64,000 nucleotides of DNA from Slackia isoflavoniconvertens. Lineage in GTDB: Bacteria > Actinomycetota > Coriobacteriia > Coriobacteriales > Eggerthellaceae. The notes below the pieces were generated by a model, which was given only the letters and a program-made list of their open reading frames with translations, ran no database searches and was not told the origin of the DNA. Positions within the stretch are counted from its first letter, which is position 1. Each line of letters opens with the position of its first letter. Shown one piece after another: positions 26,875 to 44,464 of the stretch. A program made the position numbers and the translations under genes. The stretch spans positions 62,001 through 126,000 of the forward strand of contig NZ_QIBZ01000002.1 of the NCBI RefSeq assembly GCF_003725955.1, in the 5' to 3' direction.

Positions 26875-26882
26875 GGCTCTCG

Positions 26883-27839
26883 ATGAACACGTCTAACGCA
26901 AACCCCGCCTTGCCGCGCGCGCCCAAATGCGGGGCGCGCCTGTTAACTGTGCTTGTCACCTTCGTCTTCATCCTTCTCGCTGGCGCAAGCCTTTCCAGCT
27001 GCAGCCAAACCAACCAGGCAGAAGGCGCCGCATTTTCGCCCGCCCCAAACATCACGCCTGCAGCATTCAACCCTCAGGCCGCCACAGGTGACGCCACGGC
27101 GAGCATCGACACAAGCCAAACCGAAAACGGATTCGTAGGGGCTTGCGCCACAAGCGACGCCCATCTGAAACTCCAAATCACGCAAGGCGACCACAGCGCG
27201 AACTGCGATTTGCCGAACGACGGCACGCCTATCGTATATCCGCTCGCCTTCGGCGATGGCACCTACACCTTCCGCATTATGCTGAACACGCAGGGGAACA
27301 ACTACGTGGAGCTCTACAGCACCACGGCCAGCGTTTCGCTCAAAAGCGAATTCGCGCCTTTCGTAAGGCCTAACGTCTATTGCGATTTCAATGAGGAAAG
27401 CTCGTGCGTGAAAAAGGCGCGCGAGCTCGTTGCAAACTCGACGAACGAGGCCGAGGCGCTTGAGGCCATATGCACGTGGATCGTCGACAACGTATCGTAT
27501 GACGACGCGAAAGCCGAACAGTTGAAAAGCGCGGCCGGGTATGTGCCCAACCCCGACGAAACGCTCGCAAGCGGTACGGGCATCTGCTTCGATTACGCGA
27601 GCCTGGGCGCGGCCATGCTGCGAAGCCAAGGCATTCCCACCAAAATCGTCACCGGGTACGTTTCGCCGGGCAATATCTATCACGCATGGATTATGGTCTA
27701 TATCGACGGCACATGGAAAAGCGCCCAATTCAGCGTAAGCCCGAATACGTGGAGTCGCGTTGATTTGACGTTCGCGGCAAGCGGCGGCGGCGAAAACGTG
27801 GGCGATGGCAAAAGCTATACCGACCGATTTGTGTACTAG
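26883..27839 (+). CDS. transglutaminase-like lipoprotein
   Basis: 318 residues. The ATG at 26883 starts MNTSNANPAL and leads to a signal peptide with lipobox LSSC near residue 40. Residues of about 170-300 form a transglutaminase-like domain: catalytic Cys in GTGICFDYASLGAAML, IPTKIVTGYV, His in YHAWIMVYIDGTW, and a following Asp in SRVDLTF. The domain belongs to the group usually found as exported putative proteases or cross-linking enzymes. There is no ribosome site and a -10 element sits directly before the start. The pilus-like operon follows after about 90 bases on the same strand and may be co-transcribed. Substrate unknown. Confidence 0.8.
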   Translation: MNTSNANPALPRAPKCGARLLTVLVTFVFILLAGASLSSCSQTNQAEGAAFSPAPNITPAAFNPQAATGDATASIDTSQTENGFVGACATSDAHLKLQITQGDHSANCDLPNDGTPIVYPLAFGDGTYTFRIMLNTQGNNYVELYSTTASVSLKSEFAPFVRPNVYCDFNEESSCVKKARELVANSTNEAEALEAICTWIVDNVSYDDAKAEQLKSAAGYVPNPDETLASGTGICFDYASLGAAMLRSQGIPTKIVTGYVSPGNIYHAWIMVYIDGTWKSAQFSVSPNTWSRVDLTFAASGGGENVGDGKSYTDRFVY

Positions 27840-27926
27840 GTGCCAGCAAAAAATTTGCTCTGGTGCCCCCACCGCAGGCAAAACGTGGCACAATACGGGC
27901 ATTATTTGAAGGAACGAGGAGATGCG

Positions 27927-28979
27927 ATGGCAGATAAACTCTTAGAAAGCAGCGCCATTAGCGCGTTTTGCTCAAGCGTGGCAACCATGCTCGCTGCAGG
28001 CGTGCAAACCGACGAAGCGGTGCACATGCTTTCGGAAAATCGGGCCGAATCGCAGTTCAAGCGCGTATGCGACAAAGCGTATTCGCACTTGGTAGCTGGT
28101 GAAACCCTTTCGGAATCGATGCAGGCGACAGAAGCATTTCCCGCCTATGCCGTCGAGATGGTGCGCGTGGGCGAGGCATCGGGCCGTACCGAGCGCGTGC
28201 TGCGCAGCCTTGGCTCGTATTACGACAGCGAGCGGCGATCGTTCGCGAAGCTACAAAACGCAGTTGGCTACCCAGCTGCGCTTTTGTGTGTAATGAGCAT
28301 CATCTTGGCATTCACGGTCATTTGGATTTTGCCCATCTTCTCGAAAACCTATGACAACATCGCAGGCTCGCTGACAAACGGGTCGTTTTCCATGGTGGGC
28401 GTTTCGGTCGCCATTGGTTGGGTCGCACTCATCGTGGTGTTAGTGGCCACCATCGCCGCACTCGTTTTATGGGGGCTTTCCCATAACGAAAGCGGCCGCA
28501 TGCGCGTCGCAAAGCTGTTCGAGAAGTTCCCCGCAACACGCCAGGCGATGTATCAAATAGCCTTGTCGCGCTTCACCAACGCGCTCGCAGCGTTCGTCGC
28601 GAGCGGCGTGCAAGACGAAGAGGCGCTGCGCCAAGCCATAGCCACGGTCGACCACGAAGCCCTTATGCCAAAGCTGCAGGCCACGCTCACGAGCATGGCC
28701 GATTTGGACAACCCGCGCAGCCTAGGCCAGGCCATCGTAGAAAACGAAGTGTTCGAGCCCGTATACGGCCGTATGCTTTTGGTGTACACGCGCTCGGGTT
28801 CGACCGACGAAGTTCTGCGCAACCTTTCCGACATTTTCTTTGAAGACGCGAACGCGCAAATTGGTGCTGCCATCGACAGTGTCGAGCCCGCGCTCGCCGC
28901 GTTCCTTACCGTTGCCGTTGGCGCCACGCTCATCGCCGTTATGCTGCCGCTCGTCGGCATCATGGGATCGATTGCGTAA
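27927..28979 (+). CDS. pilC: type II secretion/type IV pilus inner-membrane protein, GspF/PilC family
   Basis: 350 residues, slightly shorter than the usual 400. Start chosen at MADKLLESSAIS with a GAGGAG site 6 bases upstream. It has two T2SSF cytoplasmic helical domains: the first with LAAGVQTDEAVHML and VRVGEASGRTERVLRSLGSYY, the second with LAAFVASGVQDEEALRQAI. Membrane helices lie near residues 118-142, 155-185 and 325-350. PilC-type proteins form the platform on which pilus ATPases act. First gene of a six-gene operon ending with pilT. Confidence 0.88.
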   Translation: MADKLLESSAISAFCSSVATMLAAGVQTDEAVHMLSENRAESQFKRVCDKAYSHLVAGETLSESMQATEAFPAYAVEMVRVGEASGRTERVLRSLGSYYDSERRSFAKLQNAVGYPAALLCVMSIILAFTVIWILPIFSKTYDNIAGSLTNGSFSMVGVSVAIGWVALIVVLVATIAALVLWGLSHNESGRMRVAKLFEKFPATRQAMYQIALSRFTNALAAFVASGVQDEEALRQAIATVDHEALMPKLQATLTSMADLDNPRSLGQAIVENEVFEPVYGRMLLVYTRSGSTDEVLRNLSDIFFEDANAQIGAAIDSVEPALAAFLTVAVGATLIAVMLPLVGIMGSIA

Positions 28980-28988
28980 GGTCGCGCC

Positions 28989-29315
28989 ATGTTTCACGAA
29001 ATAACAGATTCGCAACTCGCAAAACGCCGCACGCGCCGCATAGCCGTGACATGCGCCGTGGCATGCGTGCTCGTTGCAGCGTTCCTCATTGTAGGTGCGC
29101 TGCAGACGCACGCACGCGAGCAGGGCGCCGCCGCACTTCGCGAGAGCATCATAAACGCAGCCAAGCAATGCTGCGCAATCGAAGGCAGCTATCCGTCAAC
29201 TCTGGAGCATTTGGAGGAACACTACGGCGTCGTGGTCAACGACGATGACTATGTTGTTTCTTACGAAAGCTTCGCCGACAACGTGATGCCAACCGTGGTG
29301 GTGACGCCGCGATGA
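28989..29315 (+). CDS. pseudopilin-like small membrane protein
   Basis: 108 residues with a basic N-terminus (KRRTRR), one helix at about residues 18-40 and a short soluble domain with CCAIEGSYPSTLEHLEEHYG, which resembles the post-helix region of minor pseudopilins. A standard prepilin cleavage site (Gly then Phe-Thr-Leu-x-Glu) is not evident. Starts 9 bases after pilC and overlaps the next gene by 4 bases (ATGA), so it is part of the operon. Confidence 0.7.
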   Translation: MFHEITDSQLAKRRTRRIAVTCAVACVLVAAFLIVGALQTHAREQGAAALRESIINAAKQCCAIEGSYPSTLEHLEEHYGVVVNDDDYVVSYESFADNVMPTVVVTPR

Positions 29316-29875
29316 ATACGCATGACGAAATGGCGCCCACGCCCGAAGAGCTCGAAGCCGAACAGCGCACACGCGCCTATTCATCGCTCGCTCACCTTGG
29401 GCTCGAAACCGAGCGGCGAACGTTTTCGCCCAAGCGTATTTTTCCCCAGTTGGTTTTAGGCGTGTTCTTTATCGCGCTGCTGCTGGCGCTCACAACGGGC
29501 GCGCTCGTGTACAAATCAATCATCGATTCGGCCGCGCAGAGCAGCAGCTCGCGCCAGGGCGCCGCCCTTGTATGCAACGCGGTGCATGCCAACGATGCCC
29601 AAGGGGCGATTGCAACGGGAACGGGTCCCGAGGGTCGCTCGCTTGTTATTGTGGAAGAGCTGCAATCGGGCACGTTTGAAACGCGCTTCTATTTGTACCA
29701 GGACCAAATTTTGCAGGAATACAGCATCGCCGGAACCCCGTACACACCCGAGAAGGCATCGGTCGTGGCCGATTCCGACACATTCGAGTTCACGTATTCG
29801 AAGGGCCTTTTAAGCGTGACCACCGACCAGGGCACGTCGAACGTGGCTCTGCGCAGTGCGCAAGGGGGTGCTTAA
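29312..29875 (+). CDS. pilus-operon membrane protein, DUF4860-like
   Basis: 187 residues: a charged cytoplasmic segment of about 45 residues, one transmembrane helix near 49-72 (FPQLVLGVFFIALLLAL), then an exported domain of about 115 residues with FETRFYLYQDQILQEYSIAGTPY. It resembles DUF4860-type proteins seen beside pilin-like genes, but this is from memory of pattern only. ATGA overlap with the preceding gene. Confidence 0.65.
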   Translation: MNTHDEMAPTPEELEAEQRTRAYSSLAHLGLETERRTFSPKRIFPQLVLGVFFIALLLALTTGALVYKSIIDSAAQSSSSRQGAALVCNAVHANDAQGAIATGTGPEGRSLVIVEELQSGTFETRFYLYQDQILQEYSIAGTPYTPEKASVVADSDTFEFTYSKGLLSVTTDQGTSNVALRSAQGGA

Positions 29876-29876
29876 C

Positions 29877-30314
29877 ATGCCTCGTCAAGAACACTACGAC
29901 TTCCTGGCACGCAGCGGCGGCGCATCGCGCAATAAACGCCGTTCGAACTGGTCAAGCACCGCATTTCTGGTCGAATCGCTCGTGTTGCTGTTCTTCCTTA
30001 TCGCATGTTTGGCCGTATTCACGCAGATGTTCGCCCATTCATGGCAGGCATCCTCGAACGCAAGCAGGCTCTCGGCAGCCTGCGTCGTTGCGCAAAACGC
30101 CGCTGAGGATTTTGAAGCAAACCCCCAGGGTGTGCAAAACGGCGCATTCGACGTGAACGACGCGGACGGCGCGAGCTTCCACGTGAACCGCACCGTCGAA
30201 AGCGAAGCTACGGCAGCCGGCACCATGTATACCGTTCACATTGCCGTAAGCGACGATACCGGTGAGGTTTATTCGCTCGAGGCACAACGCTATATGGAAG
30301 GGGGCGCGCGGTGA
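29877..30314 (+). CDS. pilin-like membrane protein
   Basis: 145 residues from the ATG after a strong AAGGGGGTG site; an in-frame start 7 codons upstream overlaps the previous gene and lacks a site. The N-terminal helix STAFLVESLVLLFFLIACL has a Glu at the fifth position of a hydrophobic run, as in type IV pilins, but no clear Gly before it. The exported part has strand-rich character (FHVNRTVESEATAAGTMYTVHIAVSDD). Probably a minor pilin; overlaps the next gene by 4 bases. Confidence 0.65.
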   Translation: MPRQEHYDFLARSGGASRNKRRSNWSSTAFLVESLVLLFFLIACLAVFTQMFAHSWQASSNASRLSAACVVAQNAAEDFEANPQGVQNGAFDVNDADGASFHVNRTVESEATAAGTMYTVHIAVSDDTGEVYSLEAQRYMEGGAR

Positions 30315-30790
30315 CGAAGAAAACCGAAGGCTTGCGCGTTGGCCCCATTACGCTGGTCACGCTTATTGCCGCATTGCTCTTGGCTGTGCTCGCCGTACTG
30401 TGCGCAACCACCGCAAACGCGCAGGCCACCATGGCGAATCGCCAGGCGACGTCGCTCACCGAGGCGTACGCGATTGACTCATGCGGGCAGCGCATGGTCG
30501 CAGGTATCGAAGAGTCGCTTAGTCAGGGCGACGTCGCAGCCGCGCTCACGACCGCCAAGCTCGATGCCATCGCGAACAACGCGAAAGCCGCAGACGGCGC
30601 ATGCGATTTGAATATCGAATCGGAGTACGACGGTTCAACGGTCTCTTTCACTATTTCGGCGCCGAGCGGCAAAACGCTGTGCGCAAAAGTAACCCGTGAA
30701 AACGCGTCGGTCTCTGTCGAGGAATGGAAACTGACGACAGCACAAGAAACGCCGCAGGACGAGCTGTGGTCTTCGAACAACACGAAGTAG
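30311..30790 (+). CDS. pilus-operon membrane protein, function unknown
   Basis: 159 residues from a GTG start that overlaps the previous stop (GTGA). One N-terminal helix (residues 11-33, VGPITLVTLIAALLLAVLAV), then an exported domain of about 125 residues with three Cys. It belongs to the pilus-like operon by spacing and by its single-helix exported layout. No family recognised. Confidence 0.65.
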   Translation: MTKKTEGLRVGPITLVTLIAALLLAVLAVLCATTANAQATMANRQATSLTEAYAIDSCGQRMVAGIEESLSQGDVAAALTTAKLDAIANNAKAADGACDLNIESEYDGSTVSFTISAPSGKTLCAKVTRENASVSVEEWKLTTAQETPQDELWSSNNTK

Positions 30791-30807
30791 ATTCGCGAGG
30801 AGTTAGC

Positions 30808-31881
30808 ATGAATTTGCAGAGCCTTTTGAAGAAAATGATCGACGTCAAAGCCTCCGACGTATTCGTCAATGCCGGACTGCCGCTTTCATATCAAACGAAC
30901 GGCGTACATGTGCGCACCGACACCGATCCTTTCACCCCTGCCGACACCAAGGAGTTCATCTCGCTTGTCTACGAGCTCGCCGGCCGCAATATGAAACCGT
31001 TCGAGCGAAGCATGAATCACGATGACGATTTCAGCTTTGCGGTTTCTGGCGTCGGGCGCTTCCGTGCGAACATTTTCCGCCAGCGCGGCTCGTACGGCGC
31101 GGTTATTCGTGTGATTCCCTTTGGGCTGCCCACGCCCGAAGAAATGCACATTCCCGAGCAGGTCATGCAGCTGGCCGATGTGAACAAGGGCCTCGTGCTT
31201 ATTACCGGCCCCGCTGGCTCAGGCAAATCGACCACGCTCGCATGCTTGCTCGACCGCATGAACCACGGCCGCACGGGACACATCATTACGATGGAAGATC
31301 CCATTGAGTACGTGCACAAGCATGGCACCTGCATTATCACGCAGCGTGAAGTGCCTACCGATATCGCAACGTTCCCTGAAGCGCTGCGCTCGGCCATGCG
31401 CGAGAGCCCCGATGTGATTCTGCTTGGCGAAATGCGCGACGCCGAAACCATCGGCACCGCAGTGAACGCGGCCGAAATGGCGCAACTCGTGCTTTCCACA
31501 TTGCACACCACCAGCGCCGCCGATACCGTCGAGCGCATCGTTGACGCATTCCCGCCTAGCCAGCAACGCCAAATGCGCATTCAGCTTTCCATGGTACTGC
31601 AGGCGACGGTGGCCCAGCAGCTCGTACCTACCGTCGATGGCGGAAGCATGCCGGTGTTCGAGATCATGATTATGAACACCGCTATTCGCAATTTGATTCG
31701 CGAGGAAAAAGCGTACCAGATCGATTCGGTTATCGCGTCGAATGCGAAGGCTGGCATGCAAACCATGGATCAAGCCCTGTTCGCGGCTTTCAAGGAAGAC
31801 AAAATCACCAAGGAAACGGCCTTGAATTACGCCAATCACCAAGAAGCGCTCGTCCGTCGGTTCGATGCAGAACACCTGTAA
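30808..31881 (+). CDS. pilT: type IV pilus ATPase of the PilT (retraction) type
   Basis: 357 residues, the normal PilT length. Start chosen at MNLQSLLKKMIDVKASDVFV with a GAGGAG site. It has the N-terminal PAS-like domain, Walker A GPAGSGKST (residues 134-142), Asp box EDPIEYVH, Walker B VILLGEMRD, His box LSTLHTTSA, and a C-terminal AIRNLIRE motif, which marks PilT rather than the extension ATPase PilB. In the family it powers pilus disassembly and retraction from the inner face of the membrane. It is the last gene of the operon; no PilB, major pilin or prepilin peptidase is present in this window. Confidence 0.92.
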   Translation: MNLQSLLKKMIDVKASDVFVNAGLPLSYQTNGVHVRTDTDPFTPADTKEFISLVYELAGRNMKPFERSMNHDDDFSFAVSGVGRFRANIFRQRGSYGAVIRVIPFGLPTPEEMHIPEQVMQLADVNKGLVLITGPAGSGKSTTLACLLDRMNHGRTGHIITMEDPIEYVHKHGTCIITQREVPTDIATFPEALRSAMRESPDVILLGEMRDAETIGTAVNAAEMAQLVLSTLHTTSAADTVERIVDAFPPSQQRQMRIQLSMVLQATVAQQLVPTVDGGSMPVFEIMIMNTAIRNLIREEKAYQIDSVIASNAKAGMQTMDQALFAAFKEDKITKETALNYANHQEALVRRFDAEHL

Positions 31882-31940
31882 CCGACGAGCTTTGCCCATA
31901 CGCTGCACCCGCATTGGCAGGCGCAGCTCTCGCGAATACA

Positions 31941-31982
31941 AAAGAGGGAATGCGGCCTGGGCCGCATTCCCTCTTTTTTTCT
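31941..31982 (+). terminator. strong intrinsic terminator after pilT
   Basis: Stem of 15 bases (AAGAGGGAATGCGGC and its exact complement) with a 4-base loop and a following T7 run. It closes the pilus-like operon 60 bases after the stop codon. Confidence 0.95.
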
Positions 31983-32072: not shown

Positions 32073-32426
32073 TCATTGCAAGCAGGGCGTGAGCACTTCT
32101 TTCGTTTTACGGTACTCGGCCGCCACTTTCGCGTACAACTCGTCGGCGCCTTCGAGGCTGCCAGCACGTAACACCTCGGTAAGCTCGCTTGAGGGCGCAT
32201 ACAAATTGTCGAGTCCGAGGTTTTGACACACGCCCTTCAACGTATGAGCCGCCATGAACGCTGCCTTCACGTCCTGCGCGGCAAGAGCCTCTCCGAGCTT
32301 GGCGAAACTCTCGTCTTCGAAAAATTTGCCCACAAAACGAGCGATCAGCGCATCGCCCATCAGGCGATTCGTGACCCCTTCATAATCACAACCAAGCTCA
32401 TGGTATGCTTGCTCGAGAGTCGTCAT
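32073..32426 (-). CDS. free-standing histidine phosphotransfer (HPt) protein
   Basis: 117 residues, all helical, one HPt domain. The phosphoacceptor is His61 in AAHTLKGVCQNLGL, the classical HPt signature. It begins only 3 bases after the stop of the GGDEF-REC-HD-GYP gene and is surely in its operon. HPt proteins carry phosphate from the receiver of a hybrid kinase to the receiver of a response regulator. The hybrid kinase encoded 10 kb upstream on the same strand, and the receiver in the neighbouring c-di-GMP enzyme, are the obvious partners by position; that pairing is inference. Confidence 0.88.
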   Translation of the reverse strand: MTTLEQAYHELGCDYEGVTNRLMGDALIARFVGKFFEDESFAKLGEALAAQDVKAAFMAAHTLKGVCQNLGLDNLYAPSSELTEVLRAGSLEGADELYAKVAAEYRKTKEVLTPCLQ

Positions 32427-32429
32427 GCG

Positions 32430-34319
32430 TTAACTCCTTTTCCTTGCTACTGTCTGGGGGGGGAAGAATTCGCCCACCGACTTTTTAACCTCTTCTGCAA
32501 TACGATCGCTCGACTCTTCAAAGCACTCTATGAGCAGCGGGTTGAATTCGCCGCATTCTCCATGAAGAATCATTTCTACGGCACGCTCATGCGGCAGCGC
32601 GCTTTTATACACGCGTTCGCTCACAAGGGCGTCATAGGTATCGGCTAGCGAAACGACCTGCGCGGAAATAGGGATTTGCTCGCCCTTCAGCCCGTCGGGG
32701 TAGCCGCCGCCATCCCAGCGTTCGTGATGCCAACGGCAAATTTCGCACGCCGTTCGGAAAAAGCGGGGATATTCATCGTATGCATCCAAGCCGGCGAGCA
32801 TATCGGCGCCCTTCACGGTATGCGTTTTCATAATCTCGAATTCTTCGCTTGTCAGGCCCTGCGGCTTGTTGAGCACATTATCGGGAATAGCCAGTTTGCC
32901 AATGTCGTGCAACATGGAAGCCGCCACGATATTCGAGCGGTCTTCCCCCGTAATGTCATATTTATCGGTTTTGGCAATAAGGCATTCAATAAGAAGGTTG
33001 GTGATGGCGCACACATGCCGCGCGTGTAGACCGCTTCCGCCATTATGCATATCCATGGCGCCGCCCACGATGCCCAGCAAAATACTGTTTGCCCTTTCGC
33101 GCTCGAAATACTGGCGCGACAGCAATGCGCTCAGCCTACGCTGGCGAGCATACAGGCGCATGATATTGCTCACGCGTTGGCGCACCACGCGCGCATCGAA
33201 CGGCCGGCTGATATAGTCTGAAGCACCCAGCTCGTAAGCGCGCAGCGCCGCATCGTCGGAATTTTCGCCGGAAATCATGATAACGGGCACGTCGTCGATA
33301 AGGTCGGTCGACACCATATAGGAAAGCACATCGAAACCGTTCATCACGGGCATGATGATATCGAGCAGCACGAGTGAGATTTCTTTGCCATGCTCTTGCA
33401 ACAGCTTCACTGCTTCGCGCCCGTTCACGGCTTCGATAACTTCGTACTCGTCACCAAGCATTTCACGCAGAATCATGCGATTCACCTCGGCGTCATCGAC
33501 AATAAGCAAAAGCGGCTTGCAAAATTCGCTCGACTCGAGGGGGTTGATATCGGTAGCCACGCAGCCCCTTGTGCTTTTCGCGCGATACATAAGCCCATCG
33601 GCTTGCTGCATGGCAGCCTCGACGGTCTCGCCATTGGCAACAACGCCACCGATACTCACCGAAAGGAACTGGTTATCATAGTTAGGTATCGGTGTTTGCG
33701 CCACGGCATCGCATATGGCGTGAAGGCGGTGCGAAAAGGTCTCTTGATCGATATTAGGCATCACGAGCAAGAATTCGTCACCGCCGAAACGCACGAACAC
33801 ATCGGAGTCATGCATGCATCGCTTCATTGCCTCCACAGCGGCATGCAGCGCCAAATCGCCCGCATGATGGCCCATGGAGTCGTTCACAAGCTTGAAATCA
33901 TCCAAATCGATAACGGCAACGCCCGCGAAAATACGTTGGTGCCGCAACTCGTCTTCATAGAAGCGGCGATTGTATATACCCGTCAACGCATCGGTATACA
34001 GAAGATGGCGATTTCGCAGGTCAATTTCCTCTTCAGGAGCCGATACGCACAAAAGCACGCGAGGGTCACCGGCGACACTTACATAGCGAGCCGTGGCCTT
34101 GAAGCTTTCGCCCGCCAAACGCAGCGTCCAATCCCTTTCCCCGCCGCCTTGGTCGAAAAGCTCTTCGGCGACCATTTTTCCGCATTCTTCAAAGAGCAAA
34201 CATTTATTGCAGAGCACATCGCTCTTCGTAATAAGGCGCACCACAGGATATTCGTTGAGCAGGAGTGCAATCTGCTCTTGCGCTTGAGAGTTTGACAACT
34301 CTTGTATTGCGTCGTCCAT
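32430..34319 (-). CDS. response regulator with GGDEF, REC and HD-GYP domains (c-di-GMP turnover)
   Basis: 629 residues, soluble. Start chosen at MDDAIQELSNSQ after an AGGTAC site; upstream in-frame starts lack one. Order: an N-terminal sensor-like segment with Cys residues (DVLCNKCLLFEECGK); a GGDEF domain (about 115-275) with intact RFGGDEF near residue 177; a receiver domain with the phosphoacceptor Asp near residue 319 in LLDIIMPVMNG; an HD-GYP domain with MLHDIGKL near residue 467 and HHERWDGGGYP. Both the cyclase and the phosphodiesterase motifs are intact, so one polypeptide could make and break c-di-GMP, switched by phosphorylation. It is followed by an HPt gene. Confidence 0.9.
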   Translation of the reverse strand: MDDAIQELSNSQAQEQIALLLNEYPVVRLITKSDVLCNKCLLFEECGKMVAEELFDQGGGERDWTLRLAGESFKATARYVSVAGDPRVLLCVSAPEEEIDLRNRHLLYTDALTGIYNRRFYEDELRHQRIFAGVAVIDLDDFKLVNDSMGHHAGDLALHAAVEAMKRCMHDSDVFVRFGGDEFLLVMPNIDQETFSHRLHAICDAVAQTPIPNYDNQFLSVSIGGVVANGETVEAAMQQADGLMYRAKSTRGCVATDINPLESSEFCKPLLLIVDDAEVNRMILREMLGDEYEVIEAVNGREAVKLLQEHGKEISLVLLDIIMPVMNGFDVLSYMVSTDLIDDVPVIMISGENSDDAALRAYELGASDYISRPFDARVVRQRVSNIMRLYARQRRLSALLSRQYFERERANSILLGIVGGAMDMHNGGSGLHARHVCAITNLLIECLIAKTDKYDITGEDRSNIVAASMLHDIGKLAIPDNVLNKPQGLTSEEFEIMKTHTVKGADMLAGLDAYDEYPRFFRTACEICRWHHERWDGGGYPDGLKGEQIPISAQVVSLADTYDALVSERVYKSALPHERAVEMILHGECGEFNPLLIECFEESSDRIAEEVKKSVGEFFPPQTVARKRS

Positions 34320-34475
34320 ATGTGTACCTGTTCCTATTGCTTCCCACTGTTGAGGTTGCGCGCGCTCGTCACACGGCACCGCAATAATACTCTTTCTCAA
34401 ATGAATCGGGTAAAACAATTGAAGAAGGGACGCCAAAAGTTGCCCTTGTGCTCCTTCTTCGTTTCACCTTGCGAT

Positions 34476-37400
34476 TCACGCTTCCGCATCGTTCGAACCG
34501 TTCTGCTCGGACACAATGACCGTAGACGATTCAACAGTGGGCAGCCCGAGCATTGTACGGAGGCGATTTTCTGGCTCAAGCAGGATTTCGGCCATGCGCG
34601 CGCGAATATCGTCCTCCGTCGGCAAGACGCCAGTCTCAAACGAGTCCATGAGCATATCCCATTCAATGGCGCTGTAACAATCATCGTAGTCGCTGTATCC
34701 CAAAAGGTTATAGACCCATGCGTTTATATAAGCCCGCTCTTCGCCCTCAGGCACATGAAGCGAAATGCGATCAGCCTCCTCGTTGGCTTCAACCGCGCCA
34801 TCGAAGACGTAGGCTATTTTCGGCGAAGGATACACGAGCTGCGGCACCGGGCTTCCCACCGTGAGGCTCACAAGCGCAGCGTCACCCGAAAACACCCCAA
34901 AGCCGATGTTGTTTTTATTCAAGTAATGCACATCGTCAGAGGTCGGGGATTCATTCGCAATGAAACACGCGCTTTTAAGCGCCGTGCAATTCGCGAATGC
35001 CGTATCGCCAATAGAGAGCGTTCTCGCGGTGACGCTCACATGCGTGAGGTTTGCGCATCCCTCGAAGGCACTTTGCTCCATACCGAACTTTACGGAAGGG
35101 GCATAAATATCGACGCTTGCTACGCTCGACCCGGCGAATGCGCGCGAACCGATGTATCGCAAGTTCGGCGCACTCGACCAATCGATAGCCCAGTCTCCCA
35201 TCGTGTTCTCGAATGCGCCCACGAGATTCAGGCCCGCCGTGCTTGTGGCTCCGAAGATTTCGGTCGTCGTCGAACGCAGCTTAATGGTGCCATTCAAAGC
35301 CGCCGGCGAGCCCAAAAGCAGGCTCGCCTCGTTGGGCGCCTCGCCGCCAAGGCAGCCATACAAAATAAGGGAGCCGTCATCTTGCCTATCGACCGCAAAA
35401 TCGTTCACGTTGTCAATGCGCACGAATCGGCTGTCATAACCGCCGGAAATGTTGCTCGGGGCATACCATTTGCACGCTTCGGCATTGGGGTTTTCAGTCG
35501 TGGCAAAGTTCACAGCGCTCGATCGCGATGCCACAAAGCCCAAATTCGCGCAGCCCCTTAACGCATTGGCCCCAACGTCAACCGCGTTCGGCGAGCCGAT
35601 GAACAGCGCCTGGAGGTTCTCGCAATTCTCGAACGCGCCCCTGCCGATAGACGAAACGCTCTCGGGAAGCGAGACCGACCTCAATGAGGCATCTCCCGCG
35701 AATGCGTAGGGAGCAAGGGCATTGACGTAAACCGTTTCGCCTTCTTTATTTACAAACGTGCCGTCGAATTCTTCTGCGCCCTCGTTATCGTAAAGCAAGG
35801 TCGTTTTTCCATCTGCCGTGTAATACACGAAGCCTTCCCGGGACCCCTCGAGCACCGTCACCGTTGCATTTGGCGCACCCGCAGCCGCCTTGCGCTGCTC
35901 GACCTTAGCCGCTATGTCTTCGTTTGTGCACACGATTGTTTGCACATTGCCGCCCGCAAGGCAGCCGTCTTCGAGCTCGATGGATTCACATCCGCTATCG
36001 AGGACGAGTGTGGTTGCTGACGAATTGCCCTCGAACGCGCCTTTTTCAATGCGAGACTGCATTTGCAAGAAAACGGTATCGATGCCCAATTCGGGCACGC
36101 GGAAAACGCTATCCTCAGTTTGGAGCACGCCATTGCAGAAAGCCATCTGACATTTAGGGTCGCTCGCCAAGGCGATGGAAATCGTGCGCGATTCCTCGAT
36201 GGCATCGACATACCGCACAATGAACGCGTCGAGCACGTCGTCCTCCACCACGATGTCGCAATTCTGGAGTTTCGTGAGGTCAATGTCGGGTAAATCGTCG
36301 GCCGACGCTGCGTGCACGACGAGCGTTTTAATCGCGTTCCCATCGGGCACCACCACTCGATGCACCCCCTCGGGCACATCGAGTTTGGTCACACCGTAGG
36401 GTATGCCGATATATTCGGTACCATCTTTCGATTCAAGAATGCCCTTGTCGGTTACGACGTACGCAGGATTATCGCTCGCCACGTTGTAGCCATCAGTCAC
36501 TCGAATGCCCGAATTCACATTCACATACACAGTCGAAGACGGTACCTCCATAGTATTGACGCTCAAAGCGAAACTCGAACGTTTCGTTTGGTCGTTGAAA
36601 CTATCGACCGCCTGCACGCCCTGGGGCACCGAAAGCGTCGTGGTACCGTCGACGTTTTCATGAATCACCGACTCATCGGCATCGACAAGCGTTTGCAGAC
36701 GACAGGCATTCCTATTGCCCAATTCAGCGTTGTAGCGATAGTTCTCGTCGATCGAATACGTCTGGAAACGCACCCGATACGCAGGGTCGAGCCGGGTCAC
36801 GTCGCCAGGAATAATCACATGTCTGCCAGGCGTTACGGAATAGTAATAGGGAACGCTGGCATCGCCTTCTTTCCACCCCTGCAAAAGCGCATTCAAGTAT
36901 CCCTCGTCATCGATGTTGCCGTTGCTTCTCAAAAACGCCTCTTGGGCATTAACGCTGAAAAGATTGATGGGCAAGAATACGCCCTCGGTCTCTAAGGGCG
37001 CAGTCGACCACACCACATCGCGGTTGCCAAACTCGTCAGGCTCGCCCACAACGAACACATGCGATTCACGCGGCACTATTTCCACTGTGCGCGAAACCCA
37101 TGCATCATCGGTCGAAAGGCGAAACGAAACATTCACGACAGTGGTGGTCGATGGGCAATACCCAGGGTTTTTCTCGCCCGTCGCCGCGTTTTCCCACGAA
37201 TCGATGCGAAAATACGGGTAAGTCGCAAACGATGCCTGATCGCAGCCGAAATAGAGCAAATTGAGGCCATCGTCGGTGAAAAAAGCGTCGATTCCGCAGA
37301 AAATCGTCCACGCATCGAGTTTTTGGCCCCTGTAAAACGCATCGCCCATAGCGCTAATCGTTACCTTGTCGGGGTCGACGCTTCCAAAGGAGGCATTGCC

Positions 37401-38051
37401 GTTGTAGGGTCGGAAATACGTCGTGTCGTTAAGCGGAGGGAGTTTCTCTGGAACGGGGTCCTCTTTCAAGTATTTGTACGAGTTCGCCGTCGGGTTTGCG
37501 GGATAGATTGCGGAGCCGCCGCCGTTGGTGCTGCCGTTGCCGCCAGCATTCGCGCCCCCATTGGAACCATTGCCGTTTTCGACAAGGCCATTATTGCCCT
37601 CGATGGCGCCCGGCGCACCATCGGCGACATTGCCCGATTGGCCGCTGCCAGCAGCTGTAGTTATAGACCCTTGGGCACCATCTGTGACATTGTATGCCGT
37701 GGTGCCGCTTCGGTCGTTGATGGGAGCCTGCGAAAACGCGTCATCGCCCGCCTCGTTCTCTTTGACGGCGGTATCTTTTTCTTCTTCGTTTTCACCGTGG
37801 CGATTCGCCTGCGAGTCGACCTGCGAATCCTTCGCCTGATAACCGATTTCCGTATCTTCTGCGCCATGATTATAGGAAAAGGCAAATTGAGAGGGGTCGA
37901 AAGAGACATCCGATTGGGAAAACGCGATCGCCCCCGCACCCACGACGCCCGCGAACGCCACCGATATCGCCGCCACTGCAATGCGCTTCTGCGTTGTACC
38001 ATGCGGCACGAGTTTCGTTGTATGCTTCATATGCTTCGCCACAATGATCAC
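34476..38051 (-). CDS. BspA-like leucine-rich-repeat surface protein
   Basis: 1191 residues from a GTG that touches the stop codon of the upstream gene; an ATG 7 codons later (38030) is an alternative. An N-terminal hydrophobic helix (AVAAISVAFAGVVGAGAIAF) acts as signal or anchor. A charged and Gly/Asn-rich region (about 50-180) leads to a large exported domain. LRR_5 (BspA/Treponema) units recur in the second half: SLRSVSLPESVSSIGRGAFENC, NLRYIGSRAFAGSS, AFEGCANLTHVSV and IGDTAFANCTAL. No C-terminal anchor is visible. Such proteins mediate adhesion or protein contacts. It is the last gene of the kinase-moxR-DUF58-transglutaminase operon, which suggests that operon concerns surface display. 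Confidence 0.82.
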   Translation of the reverse strand: MIIVAKHMKHTTKLVPHGTTQKRIAVAAISVAFAGVVGAGAIAFSQSDVSFDPSQFAFSYNHGAEDTEIGYQAKDSQVDSQANRHGENEEEKDTAVKENEAGDDAFSQAPINDRSGTTAYNVTDGAQGSITTAAGSGQSGNVADGAPGAIEGNNGLVENGNGSNGGANAGGNGSTNGGGSAIYPANPTANSYKYLKEDPVPEKLPPLNDTTYFRPYNGNASFGSVDPDKVTISAMGDAFYRGQKLDAWTIFCGIDAFFTDDGLNLLYFGCDQASFATYPYFRIDSWENAATGEKNPGYCPSTTTVVNVSFRLSTDDAWVSRTVEIVPRESHVFVVGEPDEFGNRDVVWSTAPLETEGVFLPINLFSVNAQEAFLRSNGNIDDEGYLNALLQGWKEGDASVPYYYSVTPGRHVIIPGDVTRLDPAYRVRFQTYSIDENYRYNAELGNRNACRLQTLVDADESVIHENVDGTTTLSVPQGVQAVDSFNDQTKRSSFALSVNTMEVPSSTVYVNVNSGIRVTDGYNVASDNPAYVVTDKGILESKDGTEYIGIPYGVTKLDVPEGVHRVVVPDGNAIKTLVVHAASADDLPDIDLTKLQNCDIVVEDDVLDAFIVRYVDAIEESRTISIALASDPKCQMAFCNGVLQTEDSVFRVPELGIDTVFLQMQSRIEKGAFEGNSSATTLVLDSGCESIELEDGCLAGGNVQTIVCTNEDIAAKVEQRKAAAGAPNATVTVLEGSREGFVYYTADGKTTLLYDNEGAEEFDGTFVNKEGETVYVNALAPYAFAGDASLRSVSLPESVSSIGRGAFENCENLQALFIGSPNAVDVGANALRGCANLGFVASRSSAVNFATTENPNAEACKWYAPSNISGGYDSRFVRIDNVNDFAVDRQDDGSLILYGCLGGEAPNEASLLLGSPAALNGTIKLRSTTTEIFGATSTAGLNLVGAFENTMGDWAIDWSSAPNLRYIGSRAFAGSSVASVDIYAPSVKFGMEQSAFEGCANLTHVSVTARTLSIGDTAFANCTALKSACFIANESPTSDDVHYLNKNNIGFGVFSGDAALVSLTVGSPVPQLVYPSPKIAYVFDGAVEANEEADRISLHVPEGEERAYINAWVYNLLGYSDYDDCYSAIEWDMLMDSFETGVLPTEDDIRARMAEILLEPENRLRTMLGLPTVESSTVIVSEQNGSNDAEA

Positions 38052-40391
38052 CTATAAAACATCCCCAAAGTATCGAACCATAGCCTCAAGCGTGTTCGCG
38101 GGCTTAGGCAGCATGCCATGTAGGCGCTCGTCGAAACGGCGCAACGTGCGCAACTCATTGGGACGCAAGTCGCGACCGCCAAATGCGTAGGCCCGATACA
38201 ACCCAACGACGCGTTGGTATTCCAGCGAATCGATACCTGGAAATGCGGTCTCGAAACGCTGCACGCAATCGAGCGGGCGATTCTTATCGTACTCTGGGCA
38301 CCCCACCGCCATAACTTGCGACATCAAACTATAGAGCGCAGGCACGCACACACTCTGCTTTTCGCTCGAGCATCGGCGCCTGCGATAGATGCGTCGCACC
38401 TGGCGCTGGCCGAAAAGCACGATCGCCAACCCCACGACGACAAGCACACATGCGCATGCGACAGAAACGCCCAGAACCAGTGGCAAGAATCGAGTCTGGC
38501 GATTCTCCCCATGCTCCTTATCGACATCACCTGCTACCGCCGTATCGCTCGCTACGTTTTCATGCGCGCCGCTGCTGTAGGCTTCACCCACATCGACGAC
38601 GTTATCGGGCTGAATAGCTTGGTTGTAAAAACCGGGCGTCACTTCAATAGGAGTCCAACCGATACCTTGGATATAGATCTCACACCAGGCATGCGCTTGA
38701 TTCGCGCCAAGCAGCACATCTCCGTCGTTGTCGCTCGCAGTATCGCGCTCGTCCGTACCGACACGGTACCCTTCGACGTATCGGGCGGGAATCCCCTGCT
38801 CGCGGAAAGCCATCGTGGCGGCCGTGGCGAAATAGGCAGAATTGCCCTCGTGGGCGCTAGAGAAGAACCACCGCGCGAAAGACGTATCCTGGGGAACATC
38901 GATGGGGCTTTCGGTATAGCTCGCAACCGTCGACAGCATCGTGCGCACGCGACTCACCACCGCGTATGTCGATTCACCAGCGGTTTCGTCCCATGTTTCT
39001 TCGTCGAAGATATACGCACGCACCGCTTCGGCATCGTCAGTGGAAATATCGAGGTAATGTTCTTTCGAAAAAGCGGCGAACACCGCCTCGGCGCGAGCAT
39101 AGCCTGTCTCATCTTTAGAAAGAAACGTTGCATCGGCGAGCAGTTCGCTCGGCGCCACATCGTCATATTCCACGGTATACGCGTCTTTGCCAACCATGCC
39201 GCTCAGAATGGTTCCATCGAGATTCGCCTGCACGTCGCCGCGATCGAGCGAGCGCGCGCTGGCAGGCGCATACACGTAGCGCGTTGAGGCGTCGTGCGCG
39301 ACAATGCGCATCGTTTTCGCAGATGCGGCCCCCTCGCCCGCCGCGGCACGGGCATCGTCGAATGCGGCGCGTTGGAAACTCGGCCGTAATCCGCTGTTGG
39401 CAAGCCATGGCACCACTCCATGCCAATCGCCCTCGAACGCGCTTTCGGGAAGCGCCGACCACTTGCCGTTTACAAACTCCGCACCCGTGAATCCTCGAAG
39501 CAGCATGTCACCCGACGGCACGCCATCAAAATGGATGGCGAGGCAGTCATCAGACCCGGTATTCATGGTCGCTGCTTTTGCAAGATTTCCCAGAGGCAGT
39601 GAATCGGAACCGAAACGAACGCCGTCGGCAGCTCTTTCGATCGACTGAGACACATGCGATATTTGAGACGCGGGCTTATAGAGAGCCGAAGCAGCAGTCA
39701 TAATGACGAAATTCGAAACAAGAACGAGCACGATAAGACCCACGAAGTAAGAAGTAGTAAGTTTCGAATAACGGAGCTGCGAAAAGCGGCACTGAAGCAG
39801 CCACGCGGTTATGGCGAGAGAAGAGCCAAGCGCAGCCATGCCCATGTTCAAACGCATAGAAAACGCGCCATAGAGCACTACCGCAAGCAACACCACGCCC
39901 GAAGTGCGCACGCGAGAGAACATCCACGACAAAACGCCCACCAGCACGCCCGCCAACACGGCAAATGCGGTCGACGTCGCTACTGTTTGCCCATTGGCGA
40001 TCAAGCCGAAATACGCATTGAATTCCTCGTTGACGTGAGAAAGCGTGCAATTCACCACGGCGAACGCTCCCTCGCGCGCAGGCGCGATGAACACGATTCC
40101 CGCCAGACACACCGCGATTACACAAGCAAGTACAGGCACGCGATACGCCCGAAAGGACGCCAATGCTTCACTAGCCACACTCAAAAGGCACGCGGCAAAA
40201 ACGCCGACAATCGCCATGAGCTCAACAACTTGAACGGCAGACGCCGATGCAGCCACAAGCGGTATGGCGACAGCATAGAGTATGGATGGTATTGCTCCAC
40301 ACAGCGCATCGATAAGAACATAGGGGGCTTTTTCTCGAGGCGAAGGGAGGTCCTCGGAAACATGGATACGCGCATTCACCGTTTCGGCCAT
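38052..40391 (-). CDS. polytopic transglutaminase-like protein (TgpA type) with Cys-to-Ser change
   Basis: 779 residues: about seven N-terminal membrane helices (residues 23-245), an exported transglutaminase-like domain (about 470-610), one more helix (about 655-680) and a cytoplasmic tail. The pattern around the usual catalytic Cys reads EGNSAYFATAATM then GIPARYVEGY, so residue 518 is Ser; the His in NQAHAWCEIYI is kept and the usual Asp position reads GWTPIEVTPGF with Glu. The protein therefore probably has no standard transglutaminase or protease activity. DUF58 and MoxR genes upstream are the usual partners of this family. The start lies 3 bases after the DUF58 stop, with a GGAGC site. 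Confidence 0.87.
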   Translation of the reverse strand: MAETVNARIHVSEDLPSPREKAPYVLIDALCGAIPSILYAVAIPLVAASASAVQVVELMAIVGVFAACLLSVASEALASFRAYRVPVLACVIAVCLAGIVFIAPAREGAFAVVNCTLSHVNEEFNAYFGLIANGQTVATSTAFAVLAGVLVGVLSWMFSRVRTSGVVLLAVVLYGAFSMRLNMGMAALGSSLAITAWLLQCRFSQLRYSKLTTSYFVGLIVLVLVSNFVIMTAASALYKPASQISHVSQSIERAADGVRFGSDSLPLGNLAKAATMNTGSDDCLAIHFDGVPSGDMLLRGFTGAEFVNGKWSALPESAFEGDWHGVVPWLANSGLRPSFQRAAFDDARAAAGEGAASAKTMRIVAHDASTRYVYAPASARSLDRGDVQANLDGTILSGMVGKDAYTVEYDDVAPSELLADATFLSKDETGYARAEAVFAAFSKEHYLDISTDDAEAVRAYIFDEETWDETAGESTYAVVSRVRTMLSTVASYTESPIDVPQDTSFARWFFSSAHEGNSAYFATAATMAFREQGIPARYVEGYRVGTDERDTASDNDGDVLLGANQAHAWCEIYIQGIGWTPIEVTPGFYNQAIQPDNVVDVGEAYSSGAHENVASDTAVAGDVDKEHGENRQTRFLPLVLGVSVACACVLVVVGLAIVLFGQRQVRRIYRRRRCSSEKQSVCVPALYSLMSQVMAVGCPEYDKNRPLDCVQRFETAFPGIDSLEYQRVVGLYRAYAFGGRDLRPNELRTLRRFDERLHGMLPKPANTLEAMVRYFGDVL

Positions 40392-40394
40392 AGC

Positions 40395-41564
40395 TTACAG
40401 CTCCATATTCTTGACGCTTGCACCAACCGAATCCACCGAAACGGCGATGACGCGATACAGGCGTTTTTCGCTAAAAGCAGTCACGTTCCGTGCTCCTACC
40501 ACGACCACCGAAAGGTCGCCGTAGACGCCCAATCGTTCCAATTCCGCGTTTTGAAGAAAATTCGTCACCAGGATGATTTTCGAAAGCTGCTGCATTGAGC
40601 TAAGCCGCTTTTCGTCTTCCGCGCTGATTACCACGTCGGAAGGCAGCGGAAGGGCGATGAATTCATCGATCATCGTATTGAAGTCACCCTCGTTTTCAAC
40701 GGGGCGAGCATCAATAATAATACCGTTGGCTTTGTGCAGCACCGTATGCACCACGCCTTGGCGCAGCAGCGACTGGCTAGTGCCAACGAACAGGGAAGCC
40801 GCTGAGTTGAGCTCTGCCTTGGCTTCCTCACTCTCGTTAGCCCCTGTTATGCCGCCGAAGATGAGAACTGTTCGTGAATCAACGGGGCGCGATGCCTCAC
40901 GAACGACCAGTTCATCAAAACGAGCAGTACGCTTCCAGTGCACAGTGCGCATCGCATCGCCCCGACGGAATTCACGCAAATCGAACACTTCGCTTTCGTC
41001 GCGCCCTTTCATGCTTTGGTCATACGAGGCATTCGACAATTCGCTTTGCGCCATGCGGTCGAAATAAGTATCGACTCGAGGAATCGACGGATACACCGCA
41101 TAGCTTCCCTCAAATGCGCAAGAGAGCGGCGAGCGGCTCAGTCCTATTGCGTCGATGAGCGTGGCTTTTTTTAACGTGATCGATATAAGGCCCACGCATG
41201 AAGTATCCAGAGGCACATCGAAACGCTCAAGGCCGCGCTGACCAGGGCAAAGCGTCACAGGCAATTCGACTATGGCACCCGTGAAGCGATTTTTGCATTC
41301 GAATACCATGTCGATATGGCCACGCAATCCACGACGCCTGGCAATCTCAATGCGCATGCACTTGTTCATTCCCACAACGCACGCACCCGAAAGTTCAAAA
41401 TTGATTTTCATGCGCCGCGCCATAAGAAGAGAGTCGACAGAGAAAAACACGGGGAAGAAGAGGGAGATGGCAAAAATGCTAAGCGATGTGGGGGTATTCA
41501 ACGCAATGAACGAGAAACCCGCAATCATGCAGGCAAAAATTGCCACAGCTTTATTCTTCAGCAT
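40395..41564 (-). CDS. DUF58 domain protein
   Basis: 389 residues. Two N-terminal helices (about residues 9-25 and 28-45) anchor a cytoplasmic or exported domain. The DUF58 signature is clear: FDLREFRRGDAMRTVHWKRTARFDELVVREAS near residues 195-225, followed by a vWA-like strand TVLIFGG. DUF58 proteins occur beside MoxR AAA+ ATPases and transglutaminase-like proteins, as here, and are thought to act in MoxR-dependent assembly or envelope stress. Direct function is unknown. Confidence 0.88.
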   Translation of the reverse strand: MLKNKAVAIFACMIAGFSFIALNTPTSLSIFAISLFFPVFFSVDSLLMARRMKINFELSGACVVGMNKCMRIEIARRRGLRGHIDMVFECKNRFTGAIVELPVTLCPGQRGLERFDVPLDTSCVGLISITLKKATLIDAIGLSRSPLSCAFEGSYAVYPSIPRVDTYFDRMAQSELSNASYDQSMKGRDESEVFDLREFRRGDAMRTVHWKRTARFDELVVREASRPVDSRTVLIFGGITGANESEEAKAELNSAASLFVGTSQSLLRQGVVHTVLHKANGIIIDARPVENEGDFNTMIDEFIALPLPSDVVISAEDEKRLSSMQQLSKIILVTNFLQNAELERLGVYGDLSVVVVGARNVTAFSEKRLYRVIAVSVDSVGASVKNMEL

Positions 41565-41600
41565 ACCGAATCCGCGCCTTTCGCCTTCGCCGCCGCGCGC

Positions 41601-42555
41601 CTATGCGCGACCGTACGCTTTATCCATGGAAGGTGCCGGCACCTCTTCAAGCACTCGATCCAAAATATCGTTCGCAGAAATAGATTCGATACGCGCCTGA
41701 GGCTTCAGCATAAGGCGATGAGCGCACACAGCATGGAAAACCTCGCGCACATCTTCAGGCACAACGAAATCGCGCTCGCGCATAATGGCGCACGCGCGCG
41801 ACATGCGGGAAAGCGCCAAGATGCCGCGAGGGCTTACGCCCAATTGAACCATTTCGAGTTCGCGCGTGCGTTCGCATAGGTTGACGATATATTCGAGCAC
41901 CATGTCGGAAATGAATACATTGCCCAAGTAGTTCTGGATTTCGACCAAATCGTCTTTTGATATTTTCGCTTGAATGTCGTCTAGCAGGTTGCTGTATCGC
42001 TTTGCCTTCAAGATAGCCACTTGGCTTTCCGTCGATGGATAGCCCACAGAAAGACGAACCATGAAACGGTCGAGCTGGCTGTCAGGCAAAGGCTGCGTGC
42101 CTATTGACCCAACGGGGTTTTCGGTAGCAATGCAAACGAACGGCTGGGGGTACGGGGCGGGTAACGCCGTCGACGGTAACCGAATGCTCCTCCATAACCT
42201 CAAGCAGCGCCGACTGCGTTTTGGCGCTCGTGCGGTTGATTTCGTCGCCCAAAAGCAGATTACAGTTTACGGCACCCCAATTGAATTCGAATTCTCCCTT
42301 ATGGGGCACATATACCGAGAAGCCCGTGATATCGGAAGGCATGGTATCGGGCGTAAACTGAACACGTTTGTAATCGAGGTCGAGCGCACGGGATAACGCA
42401 AGAGCAAGCGTGGTTTTGCCCGTACCCGGCACATCTTCAAGCAACACATGGCCGCCAGCATAAATCGCCATAAGCGTTTTCTCGATCACATCGCGCTTTC
42501 CAAGCAACGCCTTGCTAACTTCGGCCACAATAGCCTTTGATCGCTCAACAATCAT
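41601..42555 (-). pseudogene. moxR: MoxR-family AAA+ ATPase, interrupted by a one-base insertion
   Basis: The first part (42555 down to about 42150) reads MIVERSKAIVAEVSK, Walker A EDVPGTGKTT, Walker B LLGDEINR and EEHSVTVDG. It then leaves frame, while the continuation PQPFVCIATENPVGSIGTQPLPDSQLDRF to the C-terminus lies in another frame down to 41601. The total of 955 bases equals 318 codons plus one base, so one extra base explains all. The likely site is the G5 run at 42146-42150 (C5 on the coding strand): with C4 the reading VPQPFVCIATENP is restored. It may be a sequencing error, a true mutation or slippage. The ATG directly follows the kinase stop and has an AAGGAGG site. Confidence 0.87.
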
Positions 42556-44196
42556 TTAATCGTTCCTCCTTAGGCGCTTCTCGGCCGAAGCGGCTGCGAG
42601 CTGAGCTTTCAGTTCATTGAAATCAATGGGCTTACCTACATGTCCATTCATGCCCGCCTCTCGCGGCGCACGTGCATCTTCGGCGTTGTCATTCGCCGAA
42701 AGCGCGATTATCGGCACGATTGCGGCCTCGGGCAAATCGAGAGCACGAATGCGCCGCGTGGCCTCCCAGCCGTTGTACGTGGGCATTTGGATATCCATGA
42801 GAATGGCGTCATACGTGCCTGGTGCCGCCTTTTCAAACATATCGACCACTACGGGGCCATCATTCGCAACATCAACCTCGGCGCCCCGTATTTTGAGCAT
42901 TTCGGTAGTAATCATGGCGTTAATCTCATTGTCTTCCGCCAAAAGGAATCGCCGTCGTTCAAAATTGTATTCAATTTCGGAATTGGAGCTTTCTTTCCAC
43001 AGCTCAAGAGTTTCCCTTTGCCGCTCAAGATATTCCACCTGTTCGCTTTTGGCTTTCTCAAATGAGATATAGGCCATGAAATCGGAACCTTTGCCCAACT
43101 CGGTATCTACGACGATTTGCCCACCCATAAGCTCGACGAGGCCGTTTGCAATAGGCATTCCCAAACCAGTTCCCCCGTAGTGGCGAGCAATGGATGTATC
43201 TTCTTGCTCAAAAGGCTTGAAAATACGGCTCACGAAGCACGGATCCATGCCTTTCCCCGTGTCATGCACGCGAATGACGTAGGACGCCGTATTGTCGTTC
43301 GCGCGCATCTGGCGAAAAGTGACGCTGACGTCGCCGCCTTTGGGCGTAAACTTAAGCGCATTTGAGATAAAATTCACGATAACCTGACTTAGGCGCATCT
43401 TGTCGCCTATTAAGAAATGGTCGGGGCACTCCTCGCACGACACAGTGTAGTTCAGGCCTTTGTCCTTCGCCTGCAAAGCGAACATGTATTCCATCTCGGT
43501 CGCCACGACACGTATATCGAACGGTATGGCTTCCAATTCGGTGCGGCCGCTGTTCAATCGGCTCATGTCGAGCACATCATTGATGAGCGTGAGCAAATAC
43601 GATGAGAGCTCATCGGCACGAGTGAGGTCGTCTATAACGCGCGATTTTTCGTCAGGATGCTGCATGGCGAGAGAAATCATGCCCTTGATGCCGTTAAGCG
43701 GTGTGCGAATTTCATGGCTCATTTGGCTGAGGAAGTCGGTGCGGTCTTGCGCCATGGCGAGAGCCCTATCGCGCTCGGAGATGGCTTGCTCCACCTTGGC
43801 ATGAGTCGTCGTAATATCAATCGCCACCATAAGTATATGGGTTCCTTCAAGCACGTTTGTAAACCGTAGCCGGAAGAGCTTTTCTTCGCCGCTGTTCGGC
43901 ATGATATACAAGACATATGTCTCTAAGGGCTTTTTTCGGTCCCATTGCATGATTTCATTCTTCACACGGGGGCGATCGGCTTCAACGACGAAGCGGAAAA
44001 GCGTTTCTACGTCGTCTTCCATACGCTCGGGCTCAACGGAAAAAACGCGCTCGAAGCTGCTAGAGATATATACGGGGTAAAGATCAGTGGCGCGAAACAA
44101 GATTTGTACATTCACGCCCGCCTGCCGGTACGCTTCAGTAAACAGATCTCTACCGCGCGCCGCGGCTTTCTTTTTCGATGAAGCAAACAGGCCCAT
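42556..44196 (-). CDS. cytoplasmic hybrid sensor histidine kinase (PAS-HisKA-HATPase-REC)
   Basis: 546 residues. Start chosen at MGLFASSKKK after a perfect GGGAGGTG site. No membrane helices. Residues 25-135 resemble a PAS domain (FRATDLYPVYISSSFERVF). HisKA has His161 in QMSHEIRTPLNGI; the ATPase domain has NFISNALKFTP, DTGKGM and GGTGLGMPI; the C-terminal receiver has its acidic pair LLAEDNE and phospho-Asp near residue 467 in LMDIQMPTYNGW. Phosphate on this receiver would need an HPt protein to go further, and one is encoded at 32073-32426. It is the first gene of the operon with moxR, DUF58, transglutaminase-like and LRR genes. Confidence 0.92.
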   Translation of the reverse strand: MGLFASSKKKAAARGRDLFTEAYRQAGVNVQILFRATDLYPVYISSSFERVFSVEPERMEDDVETLFRFVVEADRPRVKNEIMQWDRKKPLETYVLYIMPNSGEEKLFRLRFTNVLEGTHILMVAIDITTTHAKVEQAISERDRALAMAQDRTDFLSQMSHEIRTPLNGIKGMISLAMQHPDEKSRVIDDLTRADELSSYLLTLINDVLDMSRLNSGRTELEAIPFDIRVVATEMEYMFALQAKDKGLNYTVSCEECPDHFLIGDKMRLSQVIVNFISNALKFTPKGGDVSVTFRQMRANDNTASYVIRVHDTGKGMDPCFVSRIFKPFEQEDTSIARHYGGTGLGMPIANGLVELMGGQIVVDTELGKGSDFMAYISFEKAKSEQVEYLERQRETLELWKESSNSEIEYNFERRRFLLAEDNEINAMITTEMLKIRGAEVDVANDGPVVVDMFEKAAPGTYDAILMDIQMPTYNGWEATRRIRALDLPEAAIVPIIALSANDNAEDARAPREAGMNGHVGKPIDFNELKAQLAAASAEKRLRRND

Positions 44197-44349
44197 AGCA
44201 CCTCCCGATACAATGCGTTTCATTGTCGCATATCCTCACATAGCAATATGAATAATTCGATGCAAGAACAATAAAATACGCTGTATAAAGGTGAAGGCGT
44301 CGGGAGCTGGACGCGAATATGGGACACTGCGTAGACGAACTATGTCCAA

Positions 44350-44387: not shown

Positions 44388-44464
44388 TGGTGCGCCGTGA
44401 GGGATTCGAACCCCCGACGTACTGATTCGTAGTCAGTCCCTCTATCCAGCTGAGGTAACGGCGC
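44388..44464 (-). tRNA. tRNA-Arg (anticodon ACG)
   Basis: 77 bases including an encoded CCA. The acceptor stem is GCGCCGT/ACGGCGC, the anticodon stem-loop CTGACTACGAATCAG gives ACG, and the T arm contains GGTTCGAATCC. A 76-codon frame across it is spurious. Confidence 0.95.

Follow-up and report, generated by a model that had tools for sequence, protein, structure and literature searches.

Genes of the locus

The window, as we call the whole stretch of 64,000 nucleotides from Slackia isoflavoniconvertens that was analyzed, contains seven genes between positions 32073 and 44223, all of them on the minus strand. Based on their open reading frames and Pfam matches, they lie in the order that a previous sequence-only reading of this DNA had claimed. 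In the direction of transcription, they encode a hybrid histidine kinase (HK), a MoxR ATPase, a DUF58 protein, a transglutaminase-like protein (TG), an LRR protein, a GGDEF-REC-HD-GYP regulator, and a free HPt protein. Table 1 compiles these genes and the features that surround them.

Table 1. Features of the locus, with their positions in the window, strand, and the evidence used to assign them.
Feature	Position	Strand	Evidence
Hybrid histidine kinase (PAS-like, HisKA, HATPase_c, REC); first gene of module B	42556..44223, or from internal ATG 44196	-	Pfam
moxR (MoxR AAA+ ATPase), frameshifted; N-part frame 42082-42555, C-part frame 41601 to ~42150	41601..42555	-	AAA_3 and AAA_lid_2 on two frames
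DUF58 protein	40395..41564	-	PF01882, 24.3 bits, just above the Pfam cut-off of 23.4
Polytopic transglutaminase-like protein, Ser for catalytic Cys	38052..40391	-	PF01841; alignments, including TgpA chain 6g49
BspA-type LRR protein with N-terminal hydrophobic segment	34476..38051	-	PF13306; related proteins in the operon of relatives
GGDEF-REC-HD-GYP c-di-GMP regulator; likely start ATG 34319, ORF open from TTG 34436	32430..34319	-	Pfam; relatives
Free HPt protein	32073..32426	-	PF01627, 42.9 bits
Strong terminator hairpin, 17-pair stem, between convergent pilT and HPt genes	31940..31977		Terminator scan
Convergent pilus operon: transglutaminase-like lipoprotein, PilC, four pilin-like proteins, PilT	26715..31881	+	Pfam; gene order in relatives
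tRNA-Arg (ACG), just upstream of the kinase gene, followed by its own terminator	44388..44464	-	ARAGORN, Rfam, terminator scan

The genes are closely packed. The stop codon of the kinase gene abuts the ATG of moxR, the TG gene abuts the LRR gene, and 3 bp separate the stop of the regulator gene from the start of the HPt gene, while moxR, the DUF58 gene, and the TG gene are consecutive in one operon with a spacing of 0 to 40 bp. The other genes abut or are a few bases apart, and the widest gap, of about 157 bp, is found between the LRR gene and the regulator, whose start was placed at ATG 34319 because the protein of a relative begins at that position. The terminator scan predicted no strong terminator in this gap. 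Two modules touch here: module B, comprising the kinase, MoxR, DUF58, TG, and LRR genes (34476-44223), and module A, comprising the regulator and HPt genes (32073-34319). Upstream of the kinase gene, Rfam gives the tRNA-Arg alone, with its terminator, and no c-di-GMP riboswitch was found. Elsewhere in the window, an ORF of 5068 codons on the minus strand (11271-26477) likely encodes a giant surface protein.

The gene parts described by the sequence-only reading were recovered with one exception, since the motifs of the kinase, HPt, GGDEF, and HD-GYP are intact and moxR is frameshifted. No single ORF covers this gene. Its frame shifts near the C5 run at 42146-42150. Walker A and Walker B are encoded by the first frame, sensor 1 and the lid by the second, and both halves are still conserved. 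Because the moxR frame of the relatives is intact and undisturbed at the same site, we favor a mutation or a sequence error as the probable cause over a programmed frameshift, which is less likely.

The kinase-led operon in other genomes

For comparison, we used 138 genomes from the family and about 400 from the class. A TG profile search detected the TG gene in 11 of the 138 family genomes, including that of the window, at E < 1e-130, and also in one genome of another family (G306). The order HK-MoxR-(DUF58)-TG-LRR is found in the window and in G056, G066, G106, and G306, in the last of which no intact ORF was called for DUF58; G042 has HK-MoxR-DUF58-TG, and the genera g23 and g46 have HK-LRR-MoxR-(DUF58)-TG, with DUF58 called in G022 only. 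Conservation of the gene order beyond close strains, which the sequence-only reading had set in advance as its own check, therefore holds for HK-MoxR-DUF58-TG-LRR, which recurs in other genera and in a second family. Two individual loci should be mentioned. In G042, a Ser/Thr kinase gene lies directly upstream of the module B kinase gene (L020, 3033-5294), and in G114 the HK and MoxR share one reading frame (L101, 12576-15278), which probably reflects assembly frameshifts and not a true fusion.

No transmembrane segment was seen by eye in the module B kinase, and its motifs (SHEIRTP and the receiver Asp) are intact. The genome of the window has 15 receiver domains, just one of which belongs to a kinase, and this kinase, the only hybrid one in the genome, is that of module B. 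In a tree that included 45 other hybrid kinases, the operon-linked kinases form a single clade with a support of 0.99. The distances of the kinase, MoxR, and TG correlate at 0.91-0.95 over nine genomes, which, as calculated without a species-tree control, shows only joint inheritance; for this alignment alone, the two readable moxR pieces of the window were joined.

The TG protein has lost its catalytic Cys: each of the nine aligned TG sequences, as well as six from more distant loci, has Ser or Ala at this position, with the His retained. In the window, a Ser lies opposite the Cys of the solved TgpA chain 6g49 (E 1.4e-10), so the protein was rightly called a pseudo-transglutaminase from its sequence, and the catalytic Cys-His-Asp/Glu set of the TgpA-family transglutaminases is incomplete. 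Among 396 genomes from elsewhere in the phylum, with the two best candidates per genome scored, no close TG relatives were found at E 1e-30. Separately, more distant MoxR-DUF58-TG loci (L103-L106 and L113) have Ser for Cys and no hybrid kinase, and some of them adjoin large Ig-like, cadherin-like, or LRR proteins.

Taken as a whole, the gene content suggests that module B probably builds a large surface protein. MoxR and DUF58 would form a cytoplasmic ATP-driven assembly pair, the inactive transglutaminase would handle the LRR protein as a scaffold in the membrane, and the kinase that heads the module would report on or gate the assembly of this protein. It has also to be considered that the kinase might control its own operon by directly touching a partner such as MoxR, leaving c-di-GMP as a side branch. 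The precedent is the PFNA operon of Bifidobacterium, whose Ser/Thr kinase Pkb2 phosphorylates its MoxR (PMC6803598, PMC8430577), and the abutting kinase and MoxR genes, together with the lack of an adjoining HPt or c-di-GMP gene in most module B loci, fit this idea. However, every intact copy of the kinase retains its receiver, an indication of a relay. Moreover, no His-Asp kinase is known to phosphorylate Ser/Thr residues of such targets. We regard direct contact as unlikely.

The HPt and c-di-GMP pair beside the pilus operon

The regulator of module A possesses the HD-GYP motifs LHDIGK and HHERWDGGGY and an intact GGDEF catalytic motif, and the HPt protein, the only one in the genome, has an intact AAHTLKG motif. 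The GGDEF domain of the window is devoid of the I-site Arg (HDSD), which relatives keep (RGTD, RDTD).

To describe the surroundings of this pair, 20 loci around REC-HD-GYP relatives were fetched. The HPt gene adjoins a REC/c-di-GMP gene in all 20, a hybrid kinase lies no more than 2 kb away in 16, and the pilus operon, in the gene order of the window (TG lipoprotein, PilC, pilins, PilT), is present within 10 of the 20 stretches, some of which stop too early to show it. The operon also lies beside the pair in G062 and in G106, where it is convergent as in the window and its PilT and PilC are 79% and 72% identical to those of the window. Including the window, in which REC-HD-GYP and HPt likewise adjoin the TG-lipoprotein-PilC-pilins-PilT series, the combination of the HPt/HD-GYP pair and the pilus operon is found in nine genera, which supports the part of the sequence-only reading that names a neighboring pilus operon. 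The lipoprotein at the start of the operon (26715-27839 in the window) is conserved in this position across genera, and the Cys of its transglutaminase core is preserved (GICFDYA). At L189, L196-L201, and L205, we observed a family-wide cluster formed by the pilus operon, REC-HD-GYP, HPt, and a membrane hybrid kinase of ~990 residues.

This dedicated kinase is absent from the window. The regulator form with an N-terminal GGDEF also occurs in G012, G056, G085, G106, and a genus of another family, and no hybrid kinase adjoins it at the loci inspected (L107-L109, L162, L188). Most genomes with a close relative of the GGDEF-REC-HD-GYP regulator (about 20, of one genus in a second family) lack module B, which indicates that the pair works with other kinases there and rules out an exclusive pairing of this regulator with module B. 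We also considered whether the module B kinase descends from that of the pilus module, and the tree gives no support for this.

The missing kinase and the moxR frameshift would both be explained if the cluster were a decaying or inactive copy, with a moxR pseudogene and a pilus module deprived of its kinase. We consider this very unlikely, as the remaining frames are all open, with intact catalytic motifs, moxR is conserved past the shift as expected of a recent change or a sequence error, and HPt/c-di-GMP pairs without a kinase also exist in G106, G056, G085, G012, and G306.

The junction of the two modules and its relation to known systems

The four phospho-residues of a relay (kinase His, kinase REC Asp, HPt His, and output REC Asp) are all present, in agreement with the complete His-Asp-His-Asp set of parts that had been proposed for this locus. 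With a single HPt and a single hybrid kinase in the genome, no hybrid kinase other than that of module B is available to feed this HPt. Phosphate would pass from the kinase His to the kinase REC Asp and then to the free HPt His, which would hand it to the REC Asp of the regulator, and the HD-GYP (and GGDEF) would change c-di-GMP. The enzyme may in turn act on the convergent pilus operon, directly or through c-di-GMP. This route is likely because the module A kinase is missing and the genome has no hybrid kinase besides that of module B. Every phosphotransfer step, the c-di-GMP effect, the link to the pilus, and the role of MoxR, DUF58, and TG in LRR assembly are inferred from the sequence.

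The same seven-gene plan recurs in G066 and G114, which represent two other genera, with an EAL protein (REC-PAS-GGDEF-EAL or REC-GGDEF-EAL) in place of the HD-GYP protein and an HPt of a different type. Both output types carry a c-di-GMP phosphodiesterase domain. The arrangement in these two genomes may be one event, as they share metG upstream. G114 appears to carry frameshifts. Since both the window, with HD-GYP, and G066/G114, with EAL, show it, a receiver-bearing c-di-GMP phosphodiesterase with an HPt has reached the end of module B at least twice. In G042, where a REC-GGDEF-EAL and HPt pair is encoded at another site, and in G106, with the GGDEF-REC-HD-GYP pair on a different contig from module B, there is likewise one HPt per genome. 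The recurring junction, along with these single HPts, is the best evidence that the kinase and the c-di-GMP output may belong together.

On the other hand, several observations count against a joint relay: the frameshifted moxR, the Arg that replaces the usual Lys in the receiver of the regulator (DYISRPF) and is shared by the relatives checked, the position of the module B kinase in the tree, with no special closeness to the pilus-module kinases, and the absence of module B from 11 other genomes of the genus. The last of these would also be expected if modules A and B were unrelated neighbors, brought together by chance or by a shared insertion site at the tRNA-Arg gene, in which case the HPt/HD-GYP pair would serve the pilus and be fed by some other donor, such as an orthodox kinase, and module B would have a kinase that signals elsewhere. 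Module B does lie beside a tRNA gene, and the modules are apart in most genomes, including G106, which has both on different contigs. This explanation, in contrast, does not account for the REC-EAL and HPt pairs that G066 and G114 also carry at this end of module B, the genome offers no second hybrid kinase, and no copies of the tRNA 3' end mark a genomic island within the window; we consider it possible, although doubtful.

The joined form is rare, and the two conserved modules are usually separate. The HPt/c-di-GMP pair is mostly accompanied by its own membrane hybrid kinase and not by the MoxR operon, so the suggestion that the whole arrangement is one conserved system did not stand. Our preferred reading, to which we assign a probability of about 0.5, is that two conserved modules lie side by side, a PFNA-like module B and a module A that represents the end of a phosphorelay, with the relay running from the module B kinase. 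More tentatively, one soluble hybrid kinase might read MoxR-driven LRR assembly and switch the pilus through a borrowed HPt and c-di-GMP enzyme, the unrelated HD-GYP and EAL types having been recruited independently to the same place; two surface machines would then be coordinated by one relay. Overall, the sequence-only reading is largely plausible and partly supported, and the locus combines partly known parts in an unusual way. Operons of the MoxR-DUF58-transglutaminase type occur widely, and little is understood of what they do. The version seen here, which is headed by a hybrid kinase and includes a surface LRR protein and a transglutaminase that is inactive throughout the relatives checked, provides a testable handle, its predicted signal output being a defined relay. 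Across the family, the association of HPt and HD-GYP with a pilus operon likewise outlines a defined candidate c-di-GMP circuit for this group of bacteria.

Our literature search found no paper that joins MoxR, BspA, and a histidine kinase, and none on Eggerthella or Eggerthellaceae with c-di-GMP. Among described systems, the PFNA cluster of Bifidobacterium, which is the operon pkb2-fn3-aaa-duf58-tgm (PMC6803598, PMC8430577), comes closest. According to its published description, it shares with module B a signaling kinase, a large surface protein, MoxR, DUF58, and a polytopic transglutaminase-like protein in one operon, and its order of kinase, surface protein, MoxR, DUF58, and TG is matched in g23 and g46. 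However, the first gene of PFNA encodes a transmembrane Ser/Thr kinase, whereas that of module B encodes a hybrid His kinase; the FN3 protein is second in PFNA, whereas the BspA LRR protein is last in the window and second only in g23 and g46; and the window adds an HPt and a c-di-GMP gene. Because these two defining features, the Ser/Thr kinase and the FN3 protein, are lacking, we describe module B by analogy as PFNA-like and do not file it as PFNA. The Ser/Thr kinase gene upstream of module B in G042 is a possible bridge to the PFNA plan.

Other MoxR (MRP)-DUF58-transglutaminase triads, such as those of Kallipyga (L013-L016), have the same three genes in the same order, but no hybrid kinase or LRR match of the module B kind. 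TgpA of Pseudomonas has a eukaryotic-like transglutaminase domain (PMC3507681) whose core aligns with TG, although the catalytic Cys is changed to Ser or Ala in every family member checked. LapD/LapG adhesin control (PMC4359373) offers an analogy only, as it too brings together c-di-GMP, a large surface protein, and a transglutaminase-like fold; no LapD-like receptor was seen, and the transglutaminase-like protein of module B lacks the catalytic Cys. Finally, the relays formed by a hybrid kinase, an HPt, and a receiver with HD-GYP or EAL output resemble the window in their intact His-Asp-His-Asp parts and in an output enzyme with c-di-GMP domains, but differ in that the output pair described here adjoins a pilus operon and, in the window, a surface-assembly operon as well.
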